From Pyrus communis (Eukaryota; Streptophyta; Magnoliopsida; Rosales; Rosaceae): 64,000 bases of DNA. This document shows, one piece after another, positions 4,646 through 59,375 of the stretch. Positions within the stretch are counted from its first letter, which is position 1. Each line of letters starts with the position of its first letter. The stretch is from the NCBI RefSeq assembly GCF_963583255.1, contig NC_084813.1:4094501-4158500 (forward strand), written 5' to 3'. The notes beneath the pieces were generated by a model. It did not search any database. It was not told the DNA's origin and was given only the letters and a program-made list of their open reading frames with translations. A program made the translations under genes and the position numbers.

Positions 4646-4649
4646 CAGA

Positions 4650-5430
4650 ATGTTTGTTTTTTTGTTTTTTTTTTTTTTTTCGGAAAAAAAGGTGCGAGAT
4701 TTATTACCAACAAACAACTAAATACAAGAGGTCCAAAACAAGTAAAACACAACCAAAAACAAAAGGACCCAAAGATACACAACATAAGGCCTAATACACG
4801 AGTTGAAGCCAAATAAGGCCTAATACACGAGTTGAAGCCCAAAAACTAACACAGCACAAACAAAGTACCCTAGCTTTCTCGCCAGCGCAAACCAACGCCC
4901 TTTATCGCCGTTAAGCATCCACCTCCCAGAAACGAAGAAGAAGGTGGCTCCAACAACCTGCAACAACCCCATTGTCGATTGCAACCAGAATATGAAAGAA
5001 GCAGTGGTGAACTCAGCGATGACAATGCCAATGAAGGCAATCAAATAGAAAGTGGTGATGTGTACACCCGAGTAAAAACTCTACACACCTTCCAAAGAAA
5101 CCACAGCCAAGTGCTGTGAAGAAAGGAGATTGCAAATCGAAAAAAAGGAAGCAGCGAGAAGAGATAGAGCCAACTCGGAGTGGGACTGGAAGAAAATGGA
5201 AAAATAGAGTGAAAGGGATAAATGAGAGCCATGGAAATGGAAGGACAATGGAGGTAAAAGTAGATTGAAAGCGGAGAAAGGGTGGAAGAGCAAGGCGGAA
5301 AGGAAAAGTAGGCAGTGGAAAATTGAAGTAGAAAGAAACGAAAAAGAACAAGGAAAAAAAAGTAGAGGACTGTCATTGACCCTTGCCGGAGCTCGAGCCG
5401 ACTGCTGGGAAGAAAAAAAAATGATGAAAA
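4650..5430 (-). other. possible retrocopy with poly(A) end
   Basis: Read on the minus strand, this segment has an ORF (5044-4820, 74 residues, hydrophobic, three possible membrane stretches) followed by an AATAAA signal near 4702. A long A tract then abuts the truncated FAR1-like relic (T tract 4650-4680 on the plus strand). An AATAAA about 20 bases before an A tract is what a reverse-transcribed mRNA or a LINE 3' end would leave. The source gene is not recognised. A 29-bp unit (CCTAATACACGAGTTGAAGCC core) is duplicated at 4789-4840. No flanking duplication could be fixed. Confidence 0.3.
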
Positions 5431-7141: not shown

Positions 7142-7498
7142 ACACTTGCGCGACAAAAATATGTCATTGTGCAAAACCTTACACGTCTTACATGTTTCGT
7201 CACGCAAACATTTTTGTGACGAATTATAGTCGTCCCTAGAAATTTCTCGTCATAAAGCACACTTGTACCCTCTTACATCGTACGACGAAAATCTTTGTCT
7301 GTATACCTTTCTTGCAACGAGGAGTAAAGCATCGCGTAATCATTTAGTTGCGCGACGAATGTTCACTCTTCGTGGCACAATGTCTTTCTTCACAACCTTT
7401 GTGAGACAATTTCTACGTCGCCATAAGTTTTGTGCGACCTGGAAATGCTTTGCACGACAAATACTTCTTCGTCGCGCAAAGTGTTTAATTTAGTAGTG
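7142..7498. mobile_element. CACTA element right end
   Basis: The last bases read TTTAGTAGTG, whose reverse complement CACTACTAAA is a CACTA terminus. Inward of it lie many copies of GCGCGACAA / TCGTCGCGCAAA motifs in both orientations, the subterminal repeats of this family. With the broken second ORF just upstream it marks the right part of an old CACTA insertion. I could not find the matching left terminus or a target duplication, so the left side is probably deleted or rearranged. Confidence 0.72.
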
Positions 7499-12985: not shown

Positions 12986-12988
12986 TAA

Positions 12989-13430
12989 CACTAGTACAAA
13001 AAATACTTTGGGTGACGTAGGTCCTTCGTCGCGCAAAGTCAACAAAACGTCGCGCAAAAATTTGCGTGACGAACCTTCGTCGCGCGACAAGCGTCACGCC
13101 ACGCCTGTGAAAGAAGGTTTTGCGCGATGAAGAAGTTACATGTGTCACGCAAAGTGTCTTTGTGTGACGCAGTAACATGCATCACGCAAAGTGGGTTGGC
13201 GTGACCAAGGTGTGCATCACGCAAAGTGGGTTGGCGTGACCTAGTATGCGTCACGCAAAGTGGGTTGGCGTGACGGAGGATGCGTCACGCAAAGTGGGTT
13301 GGCATGACGGAGGATGCGTCACGCAAAGTGGATTGGCGTCACTCAAAGACACTTTGCGTGACACATACCTACGTCACGCAAACCCACTTTGCGTGACCTA
13401 TGGAACTTTTTCATCGCGCAAACTTTTTAT
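12989..13430. repeat. CACTA left subterminal repeats
   Basis: About fifteen copies of a GCGTGAC(G) / GTCACGCAAAG motif occur in both orientations, several as near-identical tandem units of the type GTCACGCAAAGTGGGTTGGC. In CACTA elements such repeats are binding sites for the element-encoded accessory protein. The array ends where plain AT-rich sequence begins near 13435. Confidence 0.85.
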
Positions 13431-13633
13431 GTTTTAATTTTTTTTAATTTTTTTGACAAAAATATTTTGGATTTATTAATATTTTTGATTTAATTTTTAA
13501 TAAATATTGTAATTATTCTAAACAATAAACAATAAACCAAGAAAAAATTTAATTATAAACCATATGAAAATGTGCATACAAGATGTCTAAACAAAAAAAG
13601 AAAAAACTACAACAAGTAGTCTTCTAGGTTTGA

Positions 13634-15688
13634 AAACTACTGGGTATTAGGTAGGTGAGGTGGCTGGGAGGTCGAAGGTGGAGTAAGATCAGGTGTTGGC
13701 AGCTGGATTTGGAGACCGGACACCGCTAAGGCCTGTACAATCATACTCATCTGCGCCCTCATCTGTTCGTTCTCAGCTCTCATCTGCTCGTTCTCCGCCT
13801 TTATATGCTCGCTCTGGGCCCTCATCTGCTCACTTTGGGCCTTTATCTGCTCATCCTGGGCTGCAAGTTGACCTTTTAGGGTTGTCACTTCCTCTTTCAG
13901 GGCGTTGACCTCTCTTGTGGTCGATTTGGAAGAAGAGGCACCCGTCTCACGAACCCGCGCCTTCCCCATACCCTAAACAACCTTGCCATGACGACGACCG
14001 TACTTTTGATCCAGGACCTCAGTCATGATCTGAAAACCTACATCCTCGGGTAAAGTGACGTCCTCCATCGGGGTTTCCGAGGGAAGTTGCGATGTTGCTT
14101 CTTGGAGAACAGCATCGCCCTTTTCCACCATAGTAGCATGTAATAATAAAGAAAAAACGTATAATGGTTAATAACAAAATATAAATAATATTTGAACGAT
14201 TCATAAATATAAGAATAATAACAATTACATCTACTTACATGAAGCTGCTCAGCAATCTCATTGCCAGGTCGAACGTAAACGTCCTTGAACACGTCGATCT
14301 CTCGGAACTTAGAACCCTCTTAAAAAAAAAAAAACCATTAGGAAAATTTTATTAATCAATAATAAAAAATAAATTGTATAAAATTTCAAAATTAATATAC
14401 TTTTACCTGACGTCGTGTCTCAAGCCTATACGAAAAGGGCTTCAAACCGGAATGGTGGAGAAGTGTCTTAGACTCCCGAGCTATCTTGCCAGCAACAGAT
14501 TTCTTTTGTTAAACACACAATATACATGTTAGTGCGACTATTTGAAAGAAATTATTTTAAAAAGCTTAAAAAAATAACTAAAAATTTAATGAATTATTAT
14601 TAAAATATTAAGTACATACCACAAATTTTGGGTCTGTAAAATGGTTGCAGAGCCATTCCCAATCCTCTGGCCGGTCCTCCAACTCGGATGGGCAACCCTC
14701 TAGGCGAGCAACCTCTGGATCATTAAATTTCTTAAAATGCGCATGAAGATCGCTCTTCCCATTTTTGTACCGATTTGCGAAGGTCTCGTCTAAGTAGGTG
14801 ATGACCTCAGGGGATATGTCCTTAAAATCAAAATTGACCTACAAATAAAACAACAAAATAATAGTAAGAAATTTAATAATATTAAGATAATATACTTTGG
14901 TTTATAATATTTGTAAACATAATTAAAAAAATGATAAAAGGCCAAAAATTAATATACTAACCGACAACTTGTCTTGCACCAGTATCTTCGTCTCCTGAGA
15001 AATTTCTGCCCAAGTCTCCCACTGCATAGGACAACAATTCCGAATAACACAACCACAACTAGTAGCGACGATGCTATGTTGTTGTGAGGTAGCCGCTCCA
15101 CGATGTCGCGAGTCATATGCAATCTCGATCAAGGAGGCAGACAGACATACATTCTGTGCCGTCTTTAGCATTCGATTAGGCCCCCTGGTTTTTTTTTTAG
15201 CTATCCAAAAAAAACTTAAATGGTGAAAATCCTAAGCTTAAATTTCTATAGAAAATTTTGCAAAACCTCCCCTAATAGTATATCATTTCCCAAAACCTTA
15301 AAAAAGTAAAATAACAGTAATTCACAACCCGCAACAAATTTTCACAATCATAAAAATAATAGTTTTAAAATGAAAAAAAAATACAACGTAGTAAGAATTA
15401 GGAAAAAAAACTACCTGGCTGGGAGCCCCCATCCTCAACTCTGGATGATGAGGAAGTGTGAATAGAAGGCTCCAAATCACAGCGGTGCCGGTGAGGCCGC
15501 CGTGCACTGAGTGACTGAACCGACACTGATGACGTCGATGATACAGGCACCTGGGATGCCGTAGCAGTAGCCTCAGTAAGGGGTGTAGGCTCCCCAATCA
15601 ATGGAGCACTCACGGATGGAGCAGTAAATGCTGATAATGCGGGAGGCGCATTGGTCACACTCCTACGACGAGTGATCAACTGCGACAT
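13634..15688 (-). pseudogene. CACTA second gene (Transposase_24 type), one stop seen
   Basis: The first coding exon starts at ATG 15688 (MSQLITRRRSV) and ends at a GT donor at 15415/15414. Further exons cover about 15200-14960 (IEIAYDSRHRGAATSQQHSI, MQWETWAEI), 14840-14630 (LHAHFKKFNDPEVARLEGCP, WEWLCNHF), 14500-14408 (ESKTLLHHSGLKPFSYRLE), 14320-14240 (FKDVYVRPGNEI) and 14135-13634. The last exon encodes GFQIMTEVLDQKYGRR and then a heptad-rich coiled coil (QIKAQSEQMRAQSEHIKAEN). An in-frame TAG lies at about 13970 where the related gene at 5515-6970 has a tryptophan. The rest of the last exon is open. The role is inferred from family knowledge: accessory protein binding subterminal repeats. 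The exon 1/2 phase could not be made to agree by eye, so that junction is uncertain. Confidence 0.82.
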
Positions 15689-15699
15689 CTATACACTTT

Positions 15700-16589
15700 T
15701 TGAAGAAAGCATTCAACTCAACATCATTTGAAAGACAAACTTATCAGTAAGAAATTTAACAAAAGAATAGAAAACAAAAGGCGAAAGCGTAAATCTTTTC
15801 TCGCTAAAAAGAAGGTAAAATGCTTAAAAGCATGCCACACAAAATGCTGAAAGAATACCTTTTCAGCTTTTATAATATTTGCTTAATGGATTATAGGATT
15901 TCAAGGTTCAACCACCAAGTTCTTGATGAGAAATACGTAACAAAAAGAAATTGTGCAAAGGTCTAATTAAACCAATGTCATAACAATGGAACGAAAAGTT
16001 TCACATGCCGAAACTGAAACACACACTACACTGCTACAACTTAGAAATTAAAATGCCAATTATCTAAAGTTAGTCAATTCTACTTCACATATCACACATC
16101 ACAACTTAGTCAATTCTAAAGTTAGTCAATTATCTAAAGTTAGTCAATTCTAAAAACTTCACATATCACACATCACATATCACATATCACAACTTAGTCA
16201 ACTTAGAAATTAAAATGTCAATTATCTAAAGTTAGTCAATTCTACTTCACATATCACAACTTAGAAATTAAAATGCCAATTATCTAAAGTTAGTCAATTC
16301 TACTTCACATATCTAAAGTTAGTCAATTCTACTTCACACATCACAATAACTCAATTTTTTCCGACTAATGACAAGTTCGCTTCTAAATGCAATTGGTTTT
16401 CTCAAATCATCTTAAACCCAAATGCTCAATGGCTATACAATCACAAATTATGATTCAAAATAATTGAAATTGTGCTAAATGGCTATACAATGGCTGTATA
16501 AGACAATAAGGTCTTAATCACATTGATCTAGTACAATCGAAAAGGCCTTCGTGCATGTTTTTCCAAATATACCCAGGTTACAGAAATAC
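15700..16589. repeat. second-gene intron with local tandem repeats
   Basis: Within the presumed first intron of the second CACTA gene, 16050-16345 is built from shuffled copies of ATCTAAAGTTAGTCAATTCT, TTCACATATCACA and AACTTAGAAATTAAAATG. This is slippage-type sequence with no coding content. Confidence 0.6.
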
Positions 16590-16721
16590 CTTGTTCAGCT
16601 GGTAATGAACTTTGATTCCCTATAGTATCCTTTTGGAGATGTTCCACCATACCCAGGTCACCGATAAGATTCCCAGAGGGAACACACTCTTTCCAACCCC
16701 AAGTGTAAACTTCACCAGTCT
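16590..16721 (-). pseudogene. captured RCC1-domain gene exon
   Basis: A 132-nt exon-like block bounded by a TCTACAG acceptor (exon starts 16721) and a GTATTT donor (exon ends 16590) encodes TGEVYTWGWKECVPSG followed by a variable tail ending PAEQ. GEVYTWG is the signature of RCC1 (beta-propeller) repeats, and GWKECVPSG is typical of plant RCC1-family proteins. Only this one exon is present; the rest of the propeller is absent. It lies in the same orientation as the transposon genes, inside the first intron of the second gene. It is a transduplicated host exon and has no stand-alone function. Confidence 0.7.
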
Positions 16722-17372
16722 CTGTAGAATGTAGATTGACCAATAATCCCAATTAGTTCACATTCTGGTCCTGTAGAAATTCATTACAAATAAATTGTTT
16801 ATGTATGAAAAAGACATGAAGCCCGTGTTTATTCATCCAGAACTCACTACAACCACAAATTAAAAACATGAAGCCCGTGTTTATTCATCCAGAAAGCACA
16901 GGAAAAACAAATTAAAAACACCAAATTTCCACTTTTAAATCTTCTTTTTTTCCTATGATGTCAAATAACAACAATGATTCAAATAACAATAATCATTACT
17001 AAAAAATTCGATTCAAATAACAATAAACATTTGAGCACAAATTCAATTCAATAGGGCAAGGGACTGAACAGAGGTGTGCGGGTGGTGGTAAATGGGGACA
17101 AGTCGTTCCCCCCTTAAATAAATTTGTTTTTCAATCACAAAACGAAACAACTCTGGGCCAGTGGTTCATATGCATTTCGGAAGTAAAATCTCGATGCAGT
17201 AAAATGTCTATAAACTATGCCTGACATGCTGACAGCCCACATTTAAGAAGCATTACGAATTTAACTCTCAGAAGGATCAATATATATCCTTTCCTTAAAA
17301 TCTCCATTCAAGTGAAACCCTGCTTAATGTAAAGAAATTTTGGAAGACAAGCTCACCCTAATCCCTAAATAA

Positions 17373-17791
17373 CAATGAACTGCAATTTCACCCTAATCCC
17401 TAATCCCTAATCCCTACAATGAACTGCAATTTCACCCATCCCTGCTTTCAACTCCTGCAACTCTGCCACTGCAGGAAGCACGGCTGCTAACGTCGTCGAA
17501 TCAAAACCCATCCCACCCACAACCATATCTCCAAAAACCCGTATCGAATCAGCGTAATAACAATTCCTCACCAACCTAGATATCATCGTATTCCACAAAA
17601 CCGTGTCCTTCTCGGGCAATCCATCAAACACCTTCTGTGCTAACTCAACCCGGGAAAGCTTGAAGTAAAAGTCAACAACAATCGACCCAACATACAAATT
17701 CAATCCTAACCCATCAACAATCGTGTGCGCGTGCAGCAAAATCACAAACCCTAATCGTAGTGAAACCCTACAATGAACTGCAATTTCACCC
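17373..17791. repeat. 21-bp direct repeats bracketing the PPR capture
   Basis: CAATGAACTGCAATTTCACCC occurs at 17373, 17417 and 17771. Two copies sit just left of the captured PPR segment and one just right of it. CCCTAAT units between the first two copies look telomere-like but are too few and not exact. The bracketed arrangement suggests template switching or slippage during capture. Confidence 0.7.
17438..17745 (-). pseudogene. captured PPR gene fragment
   Basis: About 100 codons encode HAHTIVDGLGLNLYVGS, then VFDGLPEKDTVLWNTMISRL and AAVLPAVAELQEL. The KVFDGLPEKDTVLWNTMI pattern is the classic P-L-S type pentatricopeptide repeat of organelle RNA-binding proteins. Three to four repeats are present without start or end. 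The frame is open. It is bounded by the 21-bp repeat on both sides, lies in the first intron of the second CACTA gene and has the same orientation as that gene. A piece of a host gene picked up by the transposon. Confidence 0.75.
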
Positions 17792-17835
17792 TAAACCCTA
17801 AATAACAAAAACCCATCGCAAATCACAAACCCTTA

Positions 17836-18340
17836 CCTTGATTTTGGGACTTGATTCTCGTCGGCTTCGAGATTCGTGTGGCTACCCGTCGTTTAGAATG
17901 AGAAGGAAGAGAGAAGTCTATGGGAAAGAGAGAGGGAAGACAAGTCTGGGTTAAAGATTTGGGGATCAAGGTTGCGAAGAGGAGAGATGAGTAAGAGGGA
18001 AGAGATAGAGGAGACGCAGGACTTGAGCGAGAGGAAAAGAGGAAAGTCTTTTCCTACAATTTGATTTGCAATTTGAGCGAGAGGAAAGTCTGCAATTTAA
18101 GCAAGAGGAAGAGGAAAAGAGGTCTGCAATTTGAGGAAAAGAGGTCTACGGAAAGAAAAACCGAGAGGAAAAGAGGATAGGATATATGGTTGCAAAAGTT
18201 GGAAAAATTGAAAAAAAACGCCTATTTTTCGCTATGGACCGCCAAAATTATCAATTCGCGTGACGTAGGTATACAATTCGACGTCACGCAAAGTGGTTTT
18301 GCGCGACGATTAAAGCGTCGCACAAGGTTTTTTTTTTTTT
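17836..18340 (-). promoter_or_regulatory. leader and promoter region of second CACTA gene
   Basis: A GA-rich stretch (17870-18180, plus strand) ends in a donor GTAAGG at 17835, giving a non-coding first exon. The non-autonomous derivative at 60183-60420 has the same GA-rich leader and donor. Just upstream, at 18258-18330, lie GCGTGACG / GTCACGCAAAG / GCGCGACG motifs identical in type to those at the element ends, followed by a 22-base T run. The protein that binds the ends could therefore bind its own promoter; this is inference. Confidence 0.5.
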
Positions 18341-18555
18341 TTTTTTTTTTTAAAGTATTAAAAAAATTACCAAAAATGTGACTTTACTCCTTTCAAGTTC
18401 AATTTTTATTTCACATAAACCCCACAATAATATATTATTCTAAAAAAAACCCATAATAATTTTTTTTACATATATATCATTCAATTTCTTAAGTGTTATA
18501 AGTACAAAATAAATAAATTAAAATCTACTTAGTAAATACATATACCATTGCACTT

Positions 18556-19934
18556 GATGGGAAACACATTGTACGAAACTAGTTTCAACGATCCAACCGT
18601 CAAACTTGTTTGTATATGCTTCGAGATCGCATACGCCAAAAATAGGAAAAAAAAACATTTCGAGATCAAGTAACGCGACAAAACTTTTCGACGGTTATAA
18701 ATGAAAAATAACGATTTAATGGTAGTTTTAACTCCGATTTTGATGATTTTTTACAGCTACACTCCTTGACCCTATATGAATACAATGAACTAATTCGATC
18801 GTCAATTTAAAGTATTTACACAAGTGGATACCACAAAATCTTATGTTATACTTAATGAAAGTATTAATAAACTCTAAGTGTTAGTAAATCTACCATTTTG
18901 ATGGGAACACACATTGTACGAAACTAGTTTCAACGATCCAACCGTCAAACTTGTTTGTATATGCTTCGAGATCGCATACGCCAAAAATAGGAAAAAAAAA
19001 CATTTAGAGATCAAGTAACGCGACAAAACTTTTCGACGGTTATAAATGAAAAATAACGATTTAACGGTAGTTTTAACTCCGATTTTGATGATTTTTTACA
19101 GCTACACTCCTTGACCCTATATGAATACAATGAACTAATTCGATCGTCAATTTAAAGTATTTACACAAGTGGATACCACAAAATCTTATGTTATACTTGA
19201 TGAAAGTATTAATAAACTCTAAGTGTTAGTAAATCTACCATTTTGATGGGAAACACATTGTACGAAACTAGTTTCAACGATCCAACCGTTAAACTTGTTT
19301 GTATATGCTTCGAGATCGCATACGCCAAAAATAGGAAAAAAAAACATTTAGAGATCAAGTAACACGACAAAACTTTTCGACGGTTATAAATGAAAAATAA
19401 CGATTTAACGGTAGTTTTAACTCCGATTTTGATGATTTTACAGCTACACTCCTTGACCCTATATGAATACAATGAACTAATTCGATCGTCAATTTAAAGT
19501 ATTTACACAAGTGGATACCACAAAATCTTATGTTATATTTAATGAAAGTATTAATAAACTCTAAGTGTTAGTAAATCTACCATTTTGATGGGAAACACAT
19601 TGTACGAAACTAGTTTCAACGATCCAACCGTTAAACTTGTTTGTATATGCTTCGAGATCGCATACGCCAAAAATAGGAAAAAAAAACATTTAGAGATCAA
19701 GTAACGCGACAAAACTTTTCGACGGTTATAAATGAAAAATAACGATTTAACGGTAGTTTTAACTCCGATTTTGATGATTTTTTACAGCTACACTCCTTGA
19801 CCCTATATGAATACAATGAACTAATTCGATCGTCAATTTAAAGTATTTACACAAGTGGATACCACAAAATCTTATGTTATACTTAATGAATGTATTAATA
19901 AACTCTAAGTGTTAGTAAATCTACCATTTTGATG
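18556..19934. repeat. four-copy 344-bp tandem array
   Basis: Copies begin (at GATGGG) at 18556, 18900, 19245 and 19587, and the array ends at about 19934, giving unit lengths of 344, 345, 342 and 344. Copies are nearly identical by eye; differences include small indels in GGGAAACACA/GGGAACACACA and a TTT deletion in copy 3. Each unit contains TTTCAACGATCCAACCGT and CGACGGTTATAAATG. No coding potential. High copy identity means recent amplification inside the transposon. Confidence 0.92.
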
Positions 19935-20981
19935 GACGTTTAGGTACGGATATTTCAGTACACTAATTTAGTGAAATATATTATGATATGGACGTTTACC
20001 AATATATTTCAGTACACTAGTTCACTACAATATATTTAGATACGGATATTTCAATACACTAATTTAGTGAAATATATTATGATATGGACGTTTAGGTACA
20101 CTAATTAGAGGAAGTTAAATAAAATTAATGAATTAAAATGTGTATAATAATAAATTTAAAATTTAATGCAATGACATTAAATAAGATATCTATAAAACAA
20201 AAATATAATATGAGTTTGAATTCAGTACACATTAAGAGACTAAAATCAATATACAATCTGACACCAGATTTTTATTAAATTTTAATCGTCTTAAAAGATT
20301 AAAGTTCAAAAATACAATTCTCGACTTGCCAATCTATTTGTTTACTAACACATGGAATTGAAAAAATTTAGCTTGTTAGTTACTAACACGTGGATCAGGA
20401 ATTTTAACCAATTCGAAGGCTCGTTGTTTGCATATTCATTTGTTCTTTTCATTTTCATTCCCAGATTCTAAATTTCTCTTGTTTCAAATAAGTAAACGTT
20501 GCAAAATATTATTCTTAAAGGTGCAAACGAGATAAACCATCCATAGATGTAGGTTTTAAAGTGTAAATAAGGTGTTGAAGGAATATTGAATGAGGTTGCA
20601 TGAAAGCATGGCGAAAACATTGTCAAGATCCAAAATTCTGGATGAATTTCTAAACATTGAGCAACCGATATAGTTCCAACCAAAATTGGATACAAAATTT
20701 TTACTATGAATACATTTATAATAACCTAAACGTTGCACAAAATTTGCACCTTAGACACCGCCTTCATTTGTCTCCCTTAACGTCCGCGATGCAAGGCCGC
20801 CATACCTGCAATCAGTGAGCGAGCGAGTGAATTCCCGAAGCACCAACATTAGTAATCTATTACCTAAAAAACGTAACGGGAAAAAAAAAAAATCAGAAAT
20901 GCTGCTAATATTGCCAAAATATTACCTTGACCTTGAAGGCAAAAGTCATGAGAAGGTACTACGCAACCAAAACAACCAAAC
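19935..20981. repeat. non-coding with GTAC/TTTAG repeats
   Basis: Positions 19935-20110 hold repeated phrases of the type GGTACGGATATTTCAGTACACTAATTTAGTG. The same family, in inverted orientation, fills 43480-43800 in an intron of the WSD1 gene. The remaining sequence up to the NOP14 fragment shows nothing recognisable except the presumed 3' flank of that gene fragment. Confidence 0.5.
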
Positions 20982-21636
20982 TCATCGCCTTCTCTTCTTG
21001 CCTTTGCCTTTGCCTAATTGCCCAGACTTCATAGCGTGTTCTTGTTCTTGTAGGAAAAGTCGTACCTTTCCATATTTCTCAGCTTTTTCTTCTTCCATCA
21101 GCGCCTTATCCCTCGCCTTCACCTCGTACAGGAAAGAATTATCCTTACGCAGTTCACGAATAGCCCCTTTAGCTTCTTGCTTCAAAAGTTTCTTCAACTT
21201 TCTTCTCTCGGCTCGTTCTCGATCTGGATCATAGTCTCTGCCCTTAACAAAGCTGCATAACAAAATATCATTCAGCGGTGACTCCAGCAATACGTTCAAG
21301 CACTACCCAACATAATAACATTATGACAATTGGGTACGGGAGGTAAAGATAAATTACTTCTCATCAAATTTCGGATTGAGCATTTTGATAGCCACTGGCT
21401 TTTGCTTCCGCATCTGAAGTGGTTGTCACAGAATGTGATGTTTATCTGCTTTTGTCTTAATCAGTTCAGTAACATCTTTCAGTCTGTCTGTTAATACTTG
21501 TGGCATATTCTCCTGTTCTGCCACTTCAAGCAACAAGACTGAAATTGGCAAAAAAATTTCGGGAAAAGAACTGAATCCTTCGTAAATGATGACAAACTCA
21601 CGTAGAGTTTCAATCACCGTAACCAGCACACTAGCC
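20982..21636 (-). pseudogene. NOP14: captured NOP14 3' exons
   Basis: Two exons separated by a retained 105-nt GT-AG intron (21253-21357). Exon 21636-21358 encodes ASVLVTVIETLREFV, EGFSSFPEIFLPIS and MRKQKPVAIKMLNPKFDE. Exon 21252-20982 encodes FVKGRDYDPDRERAERRKLK, ELRKDNSFLYEVK and a basic end GKGKGKKRRR with a TGA stop. This is the C-terminus of nucleolar protein 14, a small-subunit ribosome assembly factor. An in-frame TGA after KADKHHIL (about 21428) replaces what is probably an arginine codon (CGA to TGA). The intron is kept, so capture was at the DNA level and not from mRNA. Same orientation as the transposon genes. Confidence 0.85.
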
Positions 21637-21742
21637 CTGAAAATTAAAAGTTCCAACTTTTAAAGTCGTAAGACCATATGCAAACTTTACAGTATTGTTA
21701 TTACACTAATTTAGTGCAACAAAATTCTGAACCTGTGCTTAC
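21637..21742 (-). other. chimeric intron joining Raf-like and NOP14 exons
   Basis: A 106-nt interval with the Raf-side donor (ATTG|GTAAGC) at one end and the NOP14-side acceptor (TTAATTTTCAG) at the other. It must contain the fusion point of the two captured genes. Spliced, it would join the kinase glycine-loop exon to the NOP14 exon, but the phase appears to shift the NOP14 frame. Confidence 0.6.
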
Positions 21743-22801
21743 CAATGCCAATGCGTTCACCAATCTGAAGATCCTCCCATAGAATTTCCCACTCTGCAAC
21801 TTCCCCTAGTGCGGGATACCTCTCATAGTGACTATCACAACTAGTACACAGGCCACTATTGCATCTGTCCATTGGCTTACTCATTGATTCTTTATACTCG
21901 TTCAATGCTTCGGAGTTCATTGGGGGATTATCAAGAACAGGATTACAAATCTGGGTTGTTTCACTAGTTCCACCAGACACGATTACAAATCCCTCCTCAA
22001 CAGTATCTAAGAGAAGAGAAAACTTTTTTGTATCTGATTCATTTCGTTGCTCAGCTAAATCCAAGGAAGATTGTTTCAGCAAGTTATCAAAATTAGCATA
22101 GCTCACTTCAGCAGCAGTTTGAGTGGACAGCTAATTGCCTGATAATAATTGGACCAAATAATTATGAATCCCATCATCTACAAGTTTCCCATCTGCATTC
22201 ATTTGACCAAGCAACTTGTCTTCATGCAGATATTGAGGATTCATATCCGAAAATAAATCTGCAGGAGGTGATGCACCACTTTCCAACAAGACAGCATGTA
22301 GTTTTTGTGCAAACTCTGGGTTCTTTGCTGCACTGATGACATACTTTGATACATTTTTCACTTTCCTTTTCTGTGCAGATGTGGCTTTTTCAGTTGTACC
22401 CGATGAACTTTCAAATGATTTACGAAGTGATCTAAGGGGAGTCCCCATATCACTGCTAGAACTCTCCATTTGGTTTTTGTCAACAACGATTCTTCTATCA
22501 TCTTTTGTTTGAATGCCTGCATATGATGCTTCTTCTGACCGTGAGCTGCCAACTCTAGAAACTATGTCAAGATCAGAAGGAACTGCTAACATTCCACTGC
22601 CCTCAGCTTGAGCCAAACACACATCTTTGGGCATTTCGGTGGCATCTTGAAAGCTCCTTATGGCAAAGAAAGAATTCGGGAGCTGACTAGTAGGCACCTC
22701 AGCAGGAATTAGTGTTCCAGGTGCACCCATCAAATCAATAATATACTCATTGCACCGAGTAACAAACCCATTAATCATCATAAATCCAGGACATCTTACG
22801 G
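21743..22801 (-). pseudogene. captured Raf-like MAPKKK fragment (EDR1/SIS8 type)
   Basis: An exon-like block of about 350 codons. It starts in the EDR1-type regulatory domain (EYIIDLMGAPGTLIPAEVP, LPNSFFAIRSFQDATE), continues through a serine-rich linker and the conserved VKNVSKYVISAAKNPEFAQK and LHAVLLESGASPPADLF segments, and ends at the first kinase motif (WEILWEDLQIGERIGIG). A normal GTAAGC donor follows at 21742, where family genes have an intron. All catalytic kinase subdomains after the glycine loop are missing. One TAG at 22131-22133 interrupts it (a likely CAG to TAG change). Same orientation as the transposon genes, immediately upstream of the NOP14 exons. Confidence 0.85.
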
Positions 22802-23572
22802 CCTGCACTAATTCACCTTAGCAAGATGAAAAATGTGCATGGGATTGTAGGAGCAAAGCAGCAAACAAGAGCATGCACCTCTAATTATAACATCCATTAC
22901 TTAAACATGATAGTAAATTCAAATCCAACAGCTTAAAATTAGAGGTACATCCAAAATGAAAAGAACTGCAGAGATATCGCAATGACATATGAATTTATCT
23001 TTTCAACAGGGACCAAAAAAAAAAAAAACATAATTACTCTTAATCCAAGACTCCAAGAAACTTCATTAAGCAACATGTCTTGCAGAAATAACATCAGCTG
23101 TTTCAAGAGCTGTTCAAAAAGTAGAGAAAAATTGGTGTATGTTGAACTATATTTGTCATACTATAATTGGGTTCCTGTGTCTTAAGGGAACAACCAAGCA
23201 CCTACAGTTTGTGGACAAACACATTGGGCATTGGGCAGCCCCAGAAAAACCATTCAGACACAAAGACACTGCTAACACGTGTTTGAACATGATTTTCATG
23301 TTTGATTCACATGCCAAGCAAGTCACATAAAAAAACAACCTAGATACTAGTAAATAGGTCTGGGCCTCTTGGTGTTAATAAATTTTGAACGATAAAAGAG
23401 TATTGCTTGCCTGTTCATTCAACGCTGATTATGGAAATGGTTCAATAAATAGACATCTAACTACCTGTTATCACAAAGCACGGAGCCAAGACAACTTGAG
23501 TTTGTAAGAGAACACAAAATTCTCAGATGAATAAGCAGAAATGAAAGAATATAACTAAACCATCAAGGGAAC
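22802..23572. other. captured intron or spacer sequence
   Basis: No coding sequence is recognised between the Raf-like and UBC22 fragments. AT-rich, with polypyrimidine tracts; probably intronic or flanking DNA carried along with the captured exons. Confidence 0.4.
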
Positions 23573-24160
23573 CTACAATCAGAACATGTCGTAATCCAAG
23601 ACTTGGATTCCAATCCTTTTTCAAGGTGTTGACACAAATCTCACCGTTGTTTGGATGGAAAATCTTCGTTAGGAAGTAGCCTACAACAATTATTTTCCAG
23701 AAATTATAATCCAAATAGGGACTAAAGAGTTCTACCATATATAGGCCTTTCATCAACAAAAACATCTTCAGTTGTCTACGATCACGCATTCCAAACAGAA
23801 CGAGGGAACAAAAATATAACATGTCCACTTAAATGATAGTGTTATCAATTACATCATTTATGATCATAACAAACAAACCTTTAGGAGGAGAGTGTGGAAA
23901 GTCCCTGGACAATAACAACTTCATGCGGAAAACAACATTCTCATAAGGAGTGCCAGCTGCAAGGCCAAGATCGTAGCTCAGTAAATATCTCAAAAATATT
24001 CAAACGATATGAGCGAAAGACTAAATTACAGCTTATGCCAAAAAATAAACATGCCTGGCCCTTCAATATCAGCATATATGATTGAAAATCATCATCATTA
24101 ATCCTAACTTGAATGCCTTCAGTTCCAAGAAGCACAAAAGCTAGATCAGAACGAATCAAC
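23573..24160 (-). pseudogene. UBC22: captured E2 ubiquitin-conjugating gene fragment (UBC22/UBE2S type)
   Basis: Three exon pieces in order on the minus strand. About 24150-24075 encodes EGIQVRINDDDFQSYM. 23956-23879 encodes [20 protein letters not shown] and HSPPKG. 23680-23573 encodes [30 protein letters not shown] and HVLIV. The middle and last pieces have clean CTTGCAG and TTGTTGTAG acceptors and GT donors. The catalytic cysteine is in GEICVNTL. Family members have about three more residues between HPN and NGE, so a small in-frame deletion is present. The N-terminal and C-terminal parts are missing. Plant UBC22 is the homologue of UBE2S, a K11-chain E2. Same orientation as the transposon genes. 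Confidence 0.82.
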
Positions 24161-24608
24161 TGATGTGACACAAAAGGAAGACAGAAGAAAAGTGCCAATG
24201 ACGAAAAACATTGAATATGCCCAGTTCAATTGCACTATGGTTGGATTTTGAATCGCTCCCACATTGAAGCGCATGCATTGCCACATCCCTCAACACAATA
24301 TTGTACCTTTCGCGATAATACTATACTACTGAATTTCTACTTTGATCTTCTAGGGTGAACCTAAAACGCAAACATGGATGATAAGTTATGAACATTATGT
24401 TGCCATGGAACACCGTCATAACCCAATTTCATTTTGTTTTCATTTTTACTCTTTATGATGTATGATATTGCAAATTCAATCAAAATAGTTAAACGAAAGT
24501 AGATAATGAGCGTGAAAATTCCTGTTCTACATTTCAAGCGAATCAAGTGCCATAACAACGTATATACATATAAACAAGATATAAGCATAAACGTAACGTA
24601 AAGATTAT

Positions 24609-24720
24609 AAGACTCACATCAGCTTGCCAGGGGTTCCACCGAGACCCCTGTGATTGTATAAGACCTATCCTCAGGATGAGAAAGTGCTACCTTCACCCCC
24701 TTTAAGGCCTTTTTAACCTG
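24609..24720 (-). pseudogene. captured Argonaute-like exon
   Basis: After a TTACAG acceptor (exon starts 24720) the frame reads VKKALKGVKVALSHPEDRSY then TITGVSVEPLAS before a TGA. The pattern KKAL(K/R)GVKV...H...RSY.ITG.S.EPL matches the segment before and into the PAZ domain of plant Argonautes of the AGO1/AGO5 (MEL1) group. Only one exon is visible and it carries a stop or frameshift at its end. Recognition rests on about 32 residues, so another identity is possible. Same orientation as the transposon genes, next to the transposase 3' end. Confidence 0.5.
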
Positions 24721-25128
24721 TAAGTAACCGAATGCCAATCAGTTTCCAGGACAAATATCTTTAAAAGTAACCATTTGTGAACAAACATAAGTAAATACAT
24801 AGAACTCTGAATAATTTAGCCTATATGGACATATACACCTGATCCAAATGAAGTGAATCTAAAATGAACAGGTCAATACATATTAAAAGCAAATGATTAC
24901 ATGCTAAAACAAAATGCAGCTTCAAAACCGAATAAGCATGAATACTAGCATTGTATTTTATTTATATAGCTTAACTTTTAGATAAGTTGCCTATCAAAAC
25001 TGCATGAAACAAATTGAAGTAAAAATGGAGAATACCTTCAAACGATCACGATCAGATTCTTCCCGTGCCTTTTTTTAGTTTGACTTTGCCTCTCCTCAAT
25101 CTCCTGGTTTTTCCTTTACAAGTTTATA

Positions 25129-28100
25129 TTAATCCTTATCTGAACTACAATAATAACTCTCGCTATCCTCACTACTATCATTTTCGGATTTCCATTCATC
25201 CTCATCTTCATTTACTTCTTCCGGTGCATTGTATCGTGGCAGATCACCAATGTCAATTGAAATTGACTCTATTGGTATTTCGAATTCGGGAACTCCAACT
25301 ACTTCAAACGGTTCTTGGACAACATTAGTATCTCGGAGTGTTTCTTCACCAATTTTTATCAAAGATGATAACTGTTGGTCAGCGATGTTGTCATCGTTGT
25401 CATCTTGATTTAGTTCCGGAATATCATATAGCCCTCTTTGATCAATCTTCTGAACAACTTTCCAACCATTGTCGGCTTTAAGGTTGTCTAGAAAGAATAT
25501 TTGTTTCGCCATAGTTGCCAAAATGTATGGGTCTTCATCGTACCAACGTCTGGTAGTGTTTACTGATAGTAAACCATGGTCTCGCTTAACACTTGTTTGG
25601 TTATGTGGGTTTGTATCAAACCAAAGACACTTAAACAGTATCACTTGACACCTGTCTTTGTAAAGCAATTGTACTACACTAGTGAGTTTACCATAAAAAT
25701 CAATGTCTTCACTGTCGCCCGCGCCTGGTACGTGGACACCACTATTTTGAGTAGACGACTTGTCATCACGTGTTGCCCCCAAGAACTTGATCCCGTTGAC
25801 ATGACAACCTGAGAACAATTCAACGTGAAGCGGTCCTCTTGCCAAGTTATATAATTCTTCATCGTAAGAGGGTGAATTCAATTCCTTCAATTTGTTCATC
25901 TAATATAACATATACAAAAAGTTAACTTGTTAGTGTAACCAAATTTGAAGATGGGCATGAACAAGTTGGAAAATATGCTGAATTCAAAACACATACAACT
26001 TACATGTTCGTGAAACCACGAAGGAAACAATTCACGGTGCTTCTTGGCATATAAATGTGAAGGATGTTCCCGCTTCATTAACCGTTCATGCTCTTCAAGG
26101 TATGGCAAAACCTCATCACAATTGTTGAGTATGAACCAATGCGCTACCTCCATGTCTTTTTTGGTAAACGATTCGCCTTTTACAGGCTCGCCGAATGGTC
26201 GCGCAATTTGGGCAAAAACATATAGTTTCTCTTTTCTGACACCACCGTCATTATTGCGTTGAGGACGATTGAAAGCTATCTCAACATCTTGAAGATACAT
26301 TGCACAAAAAGTAAGTGACTCATATGCGACCCATGCCTCCAAAAGTGATCCTTCGGGCTTTGCCCTATTTCGGACACACTTTTTCAACTCACCAAGATAT
26401 CTACACAAATAAAAGGTATGCTACAAATTATTCAAAGCGTTCGTTGATCATTTATCTGTTATATATATATATACACGCTTAATTAAGTACCTTTCTATTG
26501 GATACATCCATCGGCAATTGACTGGTCCAACAAGCAATGCCTCATCTGGCAAGTGAATCATCACGTGAATCATACTTGTAAAGAAAGCTGGAGGAAATAT
26601 CTGTTCGAACTTGCATAAGACGTTCACAATGTCGTCCTGCAATTGTTTAACATCCGACTTCCCCAAACACCTTGCAGTCAATTGTGAAAAAAATCTAGAC
26701 AACAACACGATTGGTTTCACCACATCAAGAGGCAATAAGTGTCGAATACCAACCGGTAGAAGGCGTTGGAGTATCACATGACAATCATGACTCTTCATGT
26801 TTGAAAATTTACACCCTCTCACGTTCACGCAACGCGAGATATTGGAAGCATACCCATCTGGAAACTTTACAGAAGAAATAAAGTTGAAAAACTCTTTCTT
26901 CCCATTCGGATTAACTGTAAAAAAAGGATGGCCTTTCTTCAATGCACCACCAACTTTCTTCATCCACAAGGATGGCCTAATGCCCATTCGTTCCAAATCA
27001 AGGCGAGCTTCGACCGTGTCTTTCGTTTTTCCTTCAATGTCTAGAATTGTCCCGACCAAAGTATCAAACACATTTTTCTCAATATGCATAACATCGAGGT
27101 TGTGTCTCAATTTTAACTTTGACCAGTATGGGAGCTCAAATAACATACTCTTGTGTGTCCAGTTCAGATGTGTAGTTGGTCTGGGCTTACTGACCCCTTT
27201 GCCAAAATGACCAAATTCCAAACGGTTTAATTGATCCAAAATCTCAACTCCAGACCATTCTCTTGGTCTTGGTCGAGTCTCTTTTGTGCTGTGGAAGGCT
27301 TTATTGTTCTGACGCCACTCGTTGTCCCAAGGGAGCCATCTACGATGACCAAGATAACAAACTTTTCTCGCATGCCAAGACGATGTTACGTTCTCCTTGC
27401 ATATTGGACATGCCAAATAACCCTTAGTCATCCACCCAGAAACCATTGCATACGCGGGAAAATCGTTTACTGTCCACATCACTGCTGTTCTCATGGTGAA
27501 CATTTGCCCAGTATACTTATCATATGTACGAACACCGTTTTCCCATAAATCTTTTAGCTCATCTACCAACGGCCGCAAATAAACATCAATGGACTTTCCT
27601 GGATCTTCAGTAATTAATAGAGTCAACATCATGTATTCTTTTTTCATGCACTTCCAAGGCGGCAGATTATAAGGAAACACGACGACCGGCCAAGTGCTGT
27701 GGATTTGGTTTAGAACCCCAAACGGATTAAATCCGTCGGTGGCAAGTCCCAATCTGACGTTTCGCGGGTCAGCTGCAAAATCAGGGTACATTCGATTGAA
27801 TTCTTTCCATGCTTCTCCATCTGCAGGATGCCTCATAACATCGTCATTTACTCGTCCTTCTTTATGCCATCTCATATCGGTAGCGGTGTGCATCGACATG
27901 TACAATCATTGCAACTTAGGCTTCAATGGAAGATAACGCATTACTTTTTGTGGAATCTTGGTCTTTCTATTTTGTGATGTCATTTTAAACCTTGGCTCAT
28001 TGCATACAGGGCATTTATCCAACTGTGTGTTCTCCTTATAGAACAATATACAATTATTTACACATGCATGAATTCTTTCATACCCCAATCCAAGACCCTT

Positions 28101-28723
28101 CAACACTTTTTGGGCACTTTTATGATCTTCAGGTAAACAATTGTCCTTTGGAAGCATCCTTTTGATAACTCCTAAAAAGTAATCGAAACACTTGTTTGAC
28201 AAACGAAACTTGATCTTGCCATGCATCAACTCCACAATTGCTGTGAGCATCGAAAAGTTTTCACACCCCGGATATAATTCTTGCTTGGCATTTTTCAATA
28301 GTTTTTCATAGTTTTTGAATGCCTCACTATCCATGGTTGGACGACCGTCATCTCCCCCTTCCTGATTGGTGTTGGTTGTAGCATATGGATAAACATCATT
28401 TAGAATATCCATAACTTGTTCATTAGGATCCACATTACATTCAACAATCTCCACTCGTGTCATGTATGAAGACGAAGCTTGGTCTAATCGTTCTCCATGA
28501 TGATACCAAGTAGTATAGGTCTCTTTCATCCCATTTCTTACTAAATGAAATCGAACATTTTCGAATGTTTCCCTCATTGAGTTGTTACACTTCCTACAGG
28601 GACATCGAATATGAGTTGAACCTCGGTTTTGTCTAGTTGCGAATTCAATGAAATCATTTATTCCATCCAAGTACTCGATAGCACATCTATTATGATTCTG
28701 TATCCACTGTTTGTCCATTTTGC
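25129..28723 (-). pseudogene. TNP2-type CACTA transposase, single premature stop seen
   Basis: This is the transposase of CACTA elements (PF02992-like, with DUF4218- and DUF4216-like C-terminal parts). Translation starts at ATG 28718 (MDKQWIQNHNRC), five bases after a 3' splice site (ATTGCAG). Exon 1 (28723-26491) has a zinc-finger-like CPCRKCNNS and then CPVCNEPRF. It also holds the catalytic-core landmarks LGLATDGFNPFG and LRHNLDVMHIEKNVFD, and the WMYPIER end. Intron 26490-26401; exon 2 (26400-26004: YLGELKKCVRNRAKPEGSL, VAYESLTF); intron 26003-25900; exon 3 (25899-25129: CLWFDTNPH, DEDPYILATMAKQIFF). The only break seen is TGA at 27906-27908 between PKLQ and LYMSMHTATDM, a likely CGA-to-TGA change. 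Otherwise about 1,130 codons remain open. Confidence 0.92.
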
Positions 28724-30289
28724 CTGCAATCCCAATAAAAGTACAACAACTTCAACTATTGTCTTCTCACCTTATTCCTCCGGTAAGGGCCTATCCCATT
28801 CAAAAATACACAGTTATGTGCCGTAATTTACGATTCCAATGGATTAAATTTTGACATGGGCAAATTTCGACAGCATCTCCTTACAATTCTTCAAGTGCAC
28901 GCAGTAGATACATAATATCCACTGTGTACTCGAAGAACATTAGGAAATGTTACCAAAATTTCCACTATCGAAACCTAATCTATGAACCGCAAACTACAAC
29001 ACATAACTATGCATTCCCAAACTGTCCAAAAAATGGGACAATCCAATAATTAATTGGACCGCAAGCATGCTTTTGCATCCATGCACAAAATCCAACTAAC
29101 TCTCAAACGAGAAACTAAGCTTTTCTTGAAAAAAAAAGTGTACGAAGTTAAGTTGTATTAACTTCGTACAACACAAAACAATTTTGTAATTGATGTACAA
29201 AAATATGTGCATACAAATAAATTAAATCACAATAATTAGTGAAACTAAATAAAATAGATACAAAATATTAATCCTTGTAAACTATAATGTTGATGGCCTT
29301 AGTTTTTATTTGTTTATACTAATTATATCATCGAATATACATATTCTAGTTAGTTACACTCGAGTAATTTTGGTGGTGAGATAAATGTACTGTTAGAATA
29401 TGAACACAAGTGTAAGCGTATTTTGGCTACATATTGGTTTTAAAAAATCTTATTGAAAGATGTTTTGGTTGTCTTCAAGTTTACAAAGGATTGAGACTAA
29501 AAATGAATCCTAAATTACTTACTTGTATTAAAATTGGAAGATGATATTGAGTTTCTACAAGGATTTAATAAGAGAATCATAGCCATTGTTTATCTACATA
29601 AGTATGGCATATGCTCACAAAAATCAACCCGCTCATTATTGAACTTAAACCTATTGTCTTAGCATTGAGAATTTAATAGTGATGATAAGATTAGCTTTGA
29701 AGATCATGGCTTTTGTAGGTTTTCTATATAATTCTTAGTTGCAACACATTGCATTTACCCTCAATTCAACCGTATAGCACAAATTAAGGAAATTTCAAGG
29801 GGAAACCAACATTTCTTACAATTTCTTCTATGTAAATATATAAGTTAACCTCGATAAAGTATTCAAATGAAGCCCAAACAAGTCTTCAACAATATATCTA
29901 CAATCTCACTCCTTTTAATAGGTAAAATTAATAAAGATTACTTCAAAATTCAATCTCACAAAACTCCACCATTACCAAAAAAGGGCATAGCAAGTAAGCA
30001 AAGGTACATATACAAAAATCCCATATGCAATATGAAAAAAAATACCTTCAAATTCGTTCTTCAATGATAATTGTATACAAAAATCCTGTACAAAACAAGT
30101 TTAGTAGTTTTAGTTTGAATTCTCAATTCAAAGTTGCATATACAAAATCAAATTGCTTACCGGATACAAATAGATTAAGGAACGGAGAGAATTGGAGAAC
30201 GTTTAGAACAGAGATGGGGGAGGGAGGTAGCTGCTGCAACTAGTTTGCAGTTTCTACCACCCAAACTGATTAAGTAAAGGAAAAAAAAG
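28724..30289. other. transposase leader region
   Basis: Non-coding. It should contain the TNP2 promoter, non-coding first exon and first intron; the acceptor ATTGCAG at 28724-28730 shows that an upstream exon exists. No ORF with a domain. A poly-A-rich block lies at 29860-30070. Confidence 0.5.
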
Positions 30290-30585
30290 TCGTTGACTTT
30301 GCGTGACGTATGTGGCGTCGCGCAAAACAGCTTTGCGCTTTTGCGTGACGCCACATACGTCACGCAAAGATGTTTTGCGCGACGTAACGCAAAGATGTTT
30401 TGCGCGACGTAAGTGCACGTGCGTCGCGCAAAGCTGTTTTGCGGGACTCACGTAGCCCTGCGTCACACAAAGTCAACAGAAAAAGCGGTAAACCTTACTT
30501 GCTTTAGCGCCAAAATCTTGCTTGCGCGACGCATTTAGTTGCCTCGCGCAAGTTTTCGTCGCGCAAACATGTTTTTTTTCTAGTG
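30290..30585. repeat. CACTA right subterminal repeats
   Basis: At least ten GCGTGACG / CGTCGCGCAAA motifs occur in both orientations. They include a large internal palindrome (about 30300-30370) formed by GCGTGACGTATGTGGCGTC and its inverse. They match the left-end motifs in core but are ordered differently. The terminus is TTCTAGTG at 30585. Confidence 0.85.
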
Positions 30586-30954
30586 TAATGCAGTAATTAT
30601 GTTTGAATGCTCCACTACTTCACTGCACGAAAGCATATTTAACCATAAAGAAGTGAAGAGAATGTAGACAAGGAATTTATATTAGTAATGCAAACCACTA
30701 AATGAAACACATATATGCCCACTATTGATTAATAGTCCAAGTCCGTAATCCCTATTTAAGCTTGCCAAAATGAAACTCATAATGAATTATGGTAAGTATA
30801 CATATGTGCACGTCTAAGTTAGATGATTGAAAATAATAAGAAATTGTTGTGATGGACACACACCCACTATTTATAAAATAAGCACTTAAGAAATATAAAA
30901 ATATCTAAAACAATACATCCTTGGCACGCACGTTAGTACGTGCAGAGAGGCTAG

Positions 30955-35799: not shown

Positions 35800-38700
35800 C
35801 AATATACCTTAAAATTTAAGAATTCTCTATTTTAATCTAATCATGTGCAACAAACGATTCCTTGATTTACTAACCTCGTGGCCTCCAAACCTGTTTAACA
35901 TCTTCAATAGCCCACTAGTCAAATAAATAGCTAAAGAGTTTCTTTTCTTCTTGATTATTTTCTGTGTCTTCCAGACGAAATCAAGCGCATTTGAGAGTTC
36001 AGTCAACTTGGGAATGGAAACCTGCAAGAATGTAAAACGATTCCCCCATGGGCTCTTGCTGTCGGGTTTGATCATTTCTTTAATCGACATATAATTCCCC
36101 ATGATCCTTGTATTCAATAAAACCAATGTTGTGCTATGCGCTTCCCCTGAGCTTTGGTTCATCTCTTGCATATATAGTCGAGAGCCAAGAAAGACCATCC
36201 CGGTAAGAACGTCATTTATCGTCTGTGATAATAAATAAGTTAACTATGTTACAATTTATTTTGAATTTGACGCTATGGTGTTTAGTGATTTGCATGTTGT
36301 GTGTGTATTTTATTCTATTTTTTGTTAGTCTCCATTTTTTAAACCACAGTATATGTAAGAGATTTTTGTTACTAGCCATTAAAAGATCTATATAAATCTG
36401 TAATGTATGGGGAGTCTAAGGACTGAAAGTTCCCATTTTAACTGTTTCACCTTGAGCTTCAACAATATCAAGACCATTATGGTGAAATTAATTTATTATA
36501 AATTATGTGTTATTTGAAAGGATAGTTAAACATATTTGAGCATTGAGAATCTGATACAGCGGAAAAGGTTAATTTTGAAGATCATGGTTTCATGGCTTCT
36601 TCATTAGCTTCAATGGGTCAGATTAATCTTACTTAGTTAGGAATTTAGGATGAACAAGGCAGATTGACTTTGCAAAAAGAAAAAAGAATTAGGCAGATTT
36701 TGACTTTCTTAAGTAAATATACTCTAAATTTTAGTGGCTAATAATAATCACGCACAGGCATTCAGATCTTTTTAGGTTTACATTATGGCATTAAGATTGA
36801 CTTGCAAGCAGACAGTTAGCCTAGCTAGTATTTATTCAGTTTAAGTCTTCTGTGCCCTCATCCTATGAGCGCACAATCCCTAAATTATATTCAGTTTCAA
36901 GAATATATGGCTTAAAAAGAAGTGACAGCATATCCTTTTTGTTTCTCGATCAAATGGCAATGGAGATTTTTGAAAATTTAGAAGAAAAGTATCATTAGAC
37001 TAGAAAAAAGTTAAGTGTTGCAAGATCAATGTTTAATTTTCAAAATAAAATTTAAATATTTATTATCAATCATGACTTTAATGTTTAAATTAACAGGGAT
37101 TTTTTTTTTTTTTCTTTTTATCAACAGGAGATGGAAGTTCAAACATGAAATCTTATTCCCGTGTTTCAGAAAGGAAAAACACACCCACATGCATAAACCA
37201 AAATACTGCAGAAAAAACCTGAGACTTACCACTACAAGCCTGCTCTTAATTAATCTGATTTGATCAAGAGAGATTGTCATAGTTGATAATGTACTTCGCT
37301 CGCACTCAAGTCCGTTATTCGAGGATTTTATTGGTGATTGATCATCTTCCCCAGTGATGCTCTTTAAAATGCCCCACCAAATATCGGATGTAGTGTTCAA
37401 CAAGGATGAGAAAGTTTTGGTCATAACATTTTCTTTCTTTGATTTTGATGGCTGCCGTGAAGGAAAAGTTAGGGGAAGAGAAGGATTGTCAGCCTTTTGT
37501 AGACAGGAGAGAAGAGTGCCCATGAGAGAGTAGCCATCACCTAACACATAGTGCAACTTGAATACTACATTACCAGCTGCATTGCTATTTTGGTACTTTA
37601 TAACATGAATTTCCCACAGTGGTATGTCTTGTGGAAATTTTTTGTTGCTACGTTTGAGATATAGTCATCAAAATACTCGTCATATGATTCATTCGACAAG
37701 TTGGAAGGGAAGACTGGAGTTTTAACATGGTCTTCAAGCTTCACTTCAACCTTTTTCCATTGTTTCTTTCCATTTTTTTCAATCTGTTTCCAAATTAAAT
37801 AATTACTGCTCATGAAAAAGAGCACATCATGTAAAGAGTACTTCAAACGTCCTAAAAAACATTTAGCCCACGTCCTATAATGATGCAAATACCATAATGA
37901 TCTAGTACAAGGCTTAATTAGATCTAAAACTTATCAAGCTTAATTAGGGATATCATTCGATGAGACTAAATCGGCACTTTACAAGTTTATGTGGTGCAAA
38001 TATGACCTATACATTAGTCCATACAAGGGTTCTCATATTCATCATGTCATCAATTTTAATACATTAGGGGTATCTGTTCAATATTATGGTTTGGTTTAGT
38101 CTTATTGCTTAGTAAAAATTAATATGTCGTTGTATAAAACAAAACAAAAACCCCATTTTGGTGCAAAATAAAATTTATATATATATATATATATATATTA
38201 ATACTTCATGACCTTGTCAGAAAGTCATCCCAAACCTAAAAAGTGTGAAATGTAGTTTGCCCTATAAACTAAATGCATATGTGGAAAATATTGAAAGAAA
38301 AAAAAAAAAAAAAAAGATTGTATTTGGACCCAAAAATCGTTTACCTAGTCAAGAGGAATTCTACTATTCTAAACATCTCTTTTATTATTATTTTTTTTTG
38401 TGTTTTTTGACAAAGCATTTGTTTTTTTTTTAATATAATGACATATTTTCACTATGGGGTGCAGAATAAATTTATCTAATTAGCCATACATGAGTTTCAA
38501 ACCTAAAACTTATCACTTACAAATGAAGAAAATATCACTAAACCATATTATTAAACAACTTGATAATACGATATTGTAAGACCTCTTACAACTTAAGAGG
38601 TCTTTCATTGAACTTGAAATACCATTGGCCACCTCACTTCTCCATAGCGTTTGTTGTAGGTAGATAACGCTTTACCACAATGACAAAATGTAATCATTCA

Positions 38701-55289: not shown

Positions 55290-55318
55290 GGTTTCACAAA
55301 GAAATTTCTGTCCTAGAC

Positions 55319-58826: not shown

Positions 58827-59375
58827 ATATGACAGATATGAATTGGGAAAAACTGAGAAGAGAGTTGGTAGAGGATGGCAATGGATGATGAAGCCCCTGT
58901 GAGTACAGTCAGCATAATAATTTAGGCTTAACTAGCTAGAGTTCTAATTAATCTGTTCAATTGATGATCTAATTATAAGCTTGTTTTATGCTTTGGTATG
59001 ACACGTGCAGTGTGATGCGCCCGATTCTCACTCCTTATTTCATAAAAATGTTGTATCTGTATATACTTGAAGTCTTTAAGATTAGTTCAAACCATACTGC
59101 CATGCATTTATATTCTCCAATTTTATAGGATCCACTTCAGGATGTATCTATACTTACAAGTAAAACTAATTAACAAACCAACAATGGGGTGGGTAGGGGT
59201 GGGGTGGTTGGACGTGTGTGAACTTCCTCATGTAGGTCCTTCAAGTTAAAAACTGATAATTGTAATCTAACATATCATACTCCCCACATCATTGTTGTCC
59301 CTAGCGTCCATTTTGGTAAAACATTTTGTTAGTGTGCAGTGTACAGTGCATGAATTTTTGCCGCTACTTTGGCCA
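58827..59375. other. RALF upstream region
   Basis: Presumed promoter on the minus strand. No unambiguous TATA box within 100 bases of the start codon. Nothing else recognised. Confidence 0.4.

Follow-up and report, generated by a model that had tools for sequence, protein, structure and literature searches.

Fragments of five host genes in a TNP2-bearing CACTA transposon of Pyrus communis, and the likely course of their capture

Described CACTA captures and the Pyrus communis element

CACTA transposons that carry pieces of host genes have been described in several plants. Tgm-Express1, a soybean CACTA element described by Zabala and Vodkin, holds five unrelated host-gene fragments (PMC1947982), and an autonomous soybean element was still elusive according to the same authors in 2008 (PMC2613891). 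In the grapevine CACTA family Cactavine-5 there is a transposase open reading frame, and part of a PPR gene was captured in two copies (PMC2528002). Maize Pack-CACTA elements contain DNA of several loci (PMC8903248), 140 CACTA capture events were counted on wheat chromosome 3B (PMC4290129), and Chenopodium CACTA elements have gene fragments and satellite arrays aboard (PMC8978399). Here we describe a CACTA element of 17.6 kb located in a 64,000-nucleotide stretch of the Pyrus communis genome (referred to below as the window; contig 11:4094501-4158500 of a 487-Mb genome in 29 contigs). The element contains a TNP2 transposase gene and fragments of five host genes whose donors persist in the same genome. 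We consider it likely that the middle of this TNP2-type CACTA transposon was patched repeatedly with copies of DNA from unlinked loci of the host.

The element resembles Tgm-Express1 in that a single pair of CACTA ends encloses exons and introns from five host genes unrelated to each other. Tgm-Express1, however, is 5.7 kb long and composed of gene fragments, whereas the Pyrus element is 17.6 kb long, includes TNP2, and has sister copies that record stages of its assembly. The combination of a transposase open reading frame and a PPR gene piece within one CACTA family is shared with Cactavine-5, in which a single captured gene runs opposite to the transposase frame (PMC2528002); the fragments from five donors described here follow the sense of TNP2. 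Pack-TYPE elements are non-autonomous and are classed by the lack of a transposase match (PMC8903248); with TNP2 present, our element does not belong to the Pack-CACTA class. Multi-gene cargo in CACTA elements is already known. The initial annotation of this DNA, which set its claim of six donors against a background of established single captures, drew that contrast too sharply, as multi-gene capture is equally established by the five fragments of Tgm-Express1. The value of the present element is its readable capture history. Less usual, against the literature compared, is the presence of a transposase gene together with five donors and surviving intermediates. A literature search for template switching, gap repair and gene capture in connection with CACTA elements yielded no paper.

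The element starts with CACTA and ends with TAGTG, and is flanked on both sides by a 3-bp target-site duplication (TAA), as is typical of the CACTA (En/Spm) superfamily. There are 26 subterminal octamers inside the element, 14 at the left end (bins 13000-13399), 9 at the right end and 3 internal, and 5 further matches elsewhere in the window; this clustering at both ends is the subterminal-repeat pattern of CACTA elements. Pfam matches on the minus strand of the right part include Transposase_21 (tnp2, E-value 3.2e-92), the TNP2 transposase of the superfamily, as well as Transpos_assoc, DUF4218 and DUF4216. A single element fixed by CACTA ends and a TAA duplication and carrying its own transposase gene, as the initial annotation had proposed, is confirmed. 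An in-frame stop falls between two TNP2 frames; if splicing does not remove it, the transposase may no longer be functional. The features of the element are as follows.

12989-30585, CACTA element of 17.6 kb, defined by its ends and the TAA duplication
12986-12988, left TAA target-site duplication, read from the sequence
12989-13420, left CACTA end and subterminal repeats, with CACTA at 12989, octamers, and a tandem array at 13177-13339
13637-15688, minus strand, putative second transposon gene (TNP1-like), seen as open frames
16494-16779, minus strand, RCC1-family gene fragment, 98.3% identical to contig 9:7705716-7706001
17159-17434, filler left of the PPR piece, partial 81% match to contig 2:22171076
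17435-17746, minus strand, PPR gene fragment, 98.4% identical to contig 10:427125-427436
18258-18330, internal relic of a CACTA end, three subterminal octamers (18258-18308) and then poly-T
18554-19935, 344-bp tandem array of about four copies, present in many sister loci too
19939-21711, minus strand, NOP14 fragment (last exons, introns and downstream DNA), 96.2% identical to contig 4:3352268-3354056
21708-23403, minus strand, Raf-like MAPKKK fragment, 98.2% identical to contig 1:3594928-3596623
23403-24122, minus strand, UBC22-type E2 fragment, 94% identical to contig 9:12958478-12959210
24138-24248, 111-bp piece, 96% identical to contig 2:27428938-27429048
24244-24951, minus strand, probable old family block with a PAZ-like stretch at 24622-24738
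25129-28718, minus strand, TNP2 transposase gene, with an in-frame stop at 27906-27908 unless spliced
30300-30585, right subterminal repeats and TAGTG end (TAGTG at 30581-30585)
30586-30588, right TAA target-site duplication, read from the sequence

For the frames at 13637-15688, no Pfam match of the CACTA second-protein type (TNPA/TNP1-like) was found: the frame 13637-13969 gave matches below the cut-off, and five further frames gave nothing below an E-value of 0.16. A scan of the whole window against Rfam at gathering thresholds returned 0 matches. Outside the element, three subterminal octamers of the same CACTA family lie at 7198-7470, perhaps another fragment.

Donors of the captured fragments and the Argonaute-like block

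The captured stretch covers about 16494-24951, compared with 16590-24720 in the initial annotation, which had listed six host-gene fragments and expected donors above 85% identity, introns included, at six separate loci. This expectation holds for five of the six (RCC1, PPR, NOP14, MAPKKK and UBC22), whose donor loci in the same genome match at 94-98% DNA identity including introns and are distributed over four contigs (9, 10, 4, 1 and again 9). It does not hold for the Argonaute-like piece, which has no close donor. Five of the six claimed fragments can be regarded as pieces captured from host genes, each having a donor locus elsewhere in this genome, and in four of these five cases (RCC1, PPR, NOP14 and MAPKKK) more coding sequence of that gene was seen beside or around the donor range, in flanks rather than across whole genes. 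The RCC1 piece taken by itself matches RCC1-type models only with E-values of 0.13-0.19, and 16494-16779 takes its name from the donor flank, which carries an RCC1 repeat (E-value 3.2e-9). The PPR donor match sits within an open PPR frame of 784 residues. The NOP14 piece in the window matches the Nop14 Pfam family (E-value 7.1e-21), and the donor flank contains two more Nop14 coding stretches outside the captured range. Kinase exons beyond the captured range are found in the flank of the MAPKKK donor; the Pfam family here is protein kinase, and the label Raf-like was assigned by eye. Similarly, UBC22 is a label assigned by eye for a fragment with two matches to UQ_con (ubiquitin-conjugating enzyme; E-values 8.5e-7 and 9.5e-6), and its donor match reaches 12958283 on contig 9 when read through a sister element on contig 16. 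Like TNP2, all six fragments are on the minus strand. Five independent pieces would share the sense of TNP2 by chance in 1 of 32 cases, which is suggestive only.

Each of the five donors has a second, more distant locus in the genome (88% for RCC1, 92.6% for PPR, 91.1% for NOP14, 86.7% for MAPKKK and 86% for UBC22), which we take to be a duplicate of the donor. Kimura two-parameter (K2P) distances were computed for three fragments, with NOP14 represented by its gene part only. The distances between window and donor, and between donor and second locus, are.016 and.075 for PPR,.012 and.068 for NOP14, and.019 and.090 for MAPKKK. Because these window fragments are closer to the donors than the donors are to their second loci, these captures are younger than the donor duplications.

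The Argonaute-like stretch at 24622-24738 (39 residues) matches Pfam PAZ with an E-value of 0.0054 and 17.1 bits, against a cut-off of 28.8. Among the matches listed, the block 24244-24951 matches other places in whole or in part at 80-99%, and most of these places also carry sequence from the right of 24949. A close Argonaute donor was found neither by DNA search of the same genome, among the matches listed, nor by protein search. The protein search with this stretch gave 14 matches, of which five are in subfamily copies including the window itself and seven are more distant, six of the seven having sequence from the right of 24949 alongside. The remaining two, outside the transposon family, show 42% identity with E-values of about 0.6 and may be host Argonaute genes. 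As a capture from this genome, the Argonaute-like piece fails the donor comparison, and we reclassed it. On these alignments, the block most plausibly belongs to the long-standing content of the transposon family, possibly as an ancient capture.

Sister copies, order of capture and rival explanations

A copy of the element is located at contig 2:33417017-33433624 (contig 2:33.42 Mb). It matches 13088-19249 at 95.5% and 19213-30521 at 98.0%, with a TAGTG end after the match. This copy is 5'-truncated, and left of the equivalent of 13088 there is other sequence, copia-like by eye only. The order of parts in the window and in this copy is identical from 13088 to 30521, which indicates that the element is one mobile unit. 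The initial annotation had suggested looking for other copies with the same junctions, and this copy is one; its alternative of two adjacent transposons does not apply to the present element. The join between NOP14 and MAPKKK is found in 2 of the 7 places matching 21000-22000 among the matches listed, namely the window and the contig 2:33.42 Mb copy.

Other sister copies carry parts of this arrangement. One of them, L006 (here C9), lies at contig 9:20.01 Mb. Its kinase piece reaches 434 bp beyond the left limit seen in the window, follows the donor colinearly for 998 bp at 98.6%, and joins a 266-bp stretch that is also present in the contig 16 element (C16). This 266-bp stretch spans the junction of a piece from contig 17:5.756 Mb with the UBC22 piece. 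In C16, if a short local duplication is disregarded, UBC22 continues past the edge it has in the window; no kinase match was found in that element. The element at contig 10:20.916-20.919 Mb contains UBC22, and no match to the contig 17 piece was found in it. On the left side, the PPR piece is common to the window and to the copies C2a and C17, in which no kinase or UBC22 match was found among the matches listed. PPR is lacking in C9 and absent at L044, where the flanks of the site are joined, and at L042, L034 and L056 about 24 other bases replace the patch (filler and PPR) between the equivalents of 17158 and 17772.

The simplest reading of these copies is a right-hand order of UBC22, contig 17 piece, kinase and NOP14. 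The Argonaute-like block would be old, with UBC22 added; the contig 17 piece would then have entered beside UBC22. The kinase piece would have landed inside UBC22, as suggested by the left join in C9 and the shorter UBC22 of the window. NOP14 would have come last and overwritten whatever separated the tandem array from the inner kinase sequence, including part of the UBC22 and kinase pieces. RCC1 and PPR would have entered on the left side. The window element is probably a mosaic, because its PPR region is closest to C2b, C17 and C2a, yet its kinase piece is shared with C9, which has no PPR. In 17772-18550, 9 of 14 informative sites split C9 and C16 from the window, C2b, C2a and C17. Collecting seems to be a habit of the transposon family, as C16 also holds pieces matching contig 7:28025583 (94%) and contig 3:21481842 (95%).

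Two further observations were made on contig 16. L034 contains at about 855-1500 an extra insert of about 650 bp, with an apparent internal duplication, between the equivalents of 16814 and 16864. The tail of L025, inside the contig 16 element, is 75.6% like the left subterminal region (13337-13614 in the window).

The fragments have sharp edges, their donors persist, sister copies preserve intermediates, and several joins have short shared bases. Overlaps of about 1-5 bases are found at the NOP14/MAPKKK and MAPKKK/UBC22 joins, at the right edge of PPR and at 24949-24951. Taken together, the persisting donors, the sharp joins and the few matching bases suggest template-switching repair as the best explanation, and the capture history fits such repair better than a single capture. 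A break or an incomplete gap within the transposon, as may follow excision, would be filled by repair synthesis that moves to an unrelated template where a few bases match, and transposition would then have multiplied the patched copy.

We regard it as unlikely that the cargo arose by fusion of neighbouring CACTA elements, in which the facing ends are lost by aberrant excision and the DNA between them is carried off, as in the Pack-CACTA model of Catoni et al. 2019 described in a review (PMC13317346). The internal CACTA-end relic at 18258-18308 may be explained by such a fusion, and this octamer cluster hints at a possible old fusion of two elements. However, the donors are unlinked and some fragments are joined directly with overlaps of 1-5 bases, so that each would require its own round of fusion, whereas the octamer scan found a single internal cluster and the flanks of the PPR site at L044 are joined without any CACTA end. 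It is more doubtful still that nested Helitrons or Pack-MULEs brought the fragments in. Such elements do carry gene pieces (PMC13317346), but the fragments here adjoin each other directly, no element of this kind is present at the PPR site of L044, and no target duplication was noticed at the displayed edges, where Helitron and MULE ends were not systematically searched. A genuine chimeric host gene or gene cluster around which CACTA ends fell by chance is hardly credible: the fragments do all lie on the strand of TNP2, but four of them are parts of larger coding regions at separate loci, the same structure recurs in a second copy on another contig, and no locus with joined fragments and without CACTA ends was found among the matches listed in this single genome.

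Several points weigh against repeated patching by template-switching repair and the order proposed for it. The repair mechanism is inferred and was not observed, and overlaps of 1-5 bases can also result from end joining of loose fragments. Absences in sister copies may be losses rather than ancestral states, and L044 could have lost PPR. The divergences between copies are alike (0.015-0.021 in the TNP2 block and 0.019-0.027 in the left block) and lend the order no confirmation; with the copies at roughly equal distances from each other, their divergence was set aside as a means of dating. Together with its downstream DNA, the NOP14 piece differs from the donor by 3.2%, more than the kinase piece, though it is placed last; the gene part alone differs by 1.2%. 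C9 is deleted from 22272 to 24981, which makes the right kinase edge uncheckable. Within 15720-16035 there is no such mosaic pattern: C9 is the copy closest to the window there (3 differences in 316), and 0 of 3 informative sites group C9 with C16.

More tentatively, the stretch between the tandem array and TNP2 might serve as a cargo bay that is rewritten repeatedly, with newer pieces overwriting older ones and the kept fragments all in the sense of TNP2. Pieces in this bay, in the element or its sisters, match at least seven loci: NOP14, kinase, UBC22 and the 111-bp piece in the window, and the contig 17, 7 and 3 pieces in C16. RCC1 and PPR lie outside the bay. As part of the same tentative proposal, the gene fragments in TNP2 sense look as if selected for transcription, or for silence inside transposase introns.

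Neighbouring features and meaning of the capture history

The rest of the window contains several other coding features. A RALF peptide gene is located at 58449-58931 on the minus strand (PF05498, E-value 1.5e-21). Two related WS/DGAT acyltransferase-like frames, also on the minus strand, are found at 37026-37664 (E-value 0.0072, below the cut-off) and 44342-45037 (2.5e-9), perhaps a duplicated gene. Copia-type retrotransposon frames occupy 51425-55337 on the minus strand, one of them with RVT_2 (E-value 1.7e-77), and a piece of a FAR1 DNA-binding domain lies at 4300-4794 on the plus strand (E-value 5.6e-8).

How DNA transposons acquire unlinked gene pieces is an unsettled question, and a 2026 review leaves room for an undiscovered capture mechanism (PMC13317346). 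In Pyrus communis, the donors, a site without PPR, the intermediates and the final product are all found in one genome, so individual captures can be retraced from one join to the next. Transcription of the sense-strand fragments, if it occurs, could yield chimeric RNAs, as in soybean (PMC1947982).

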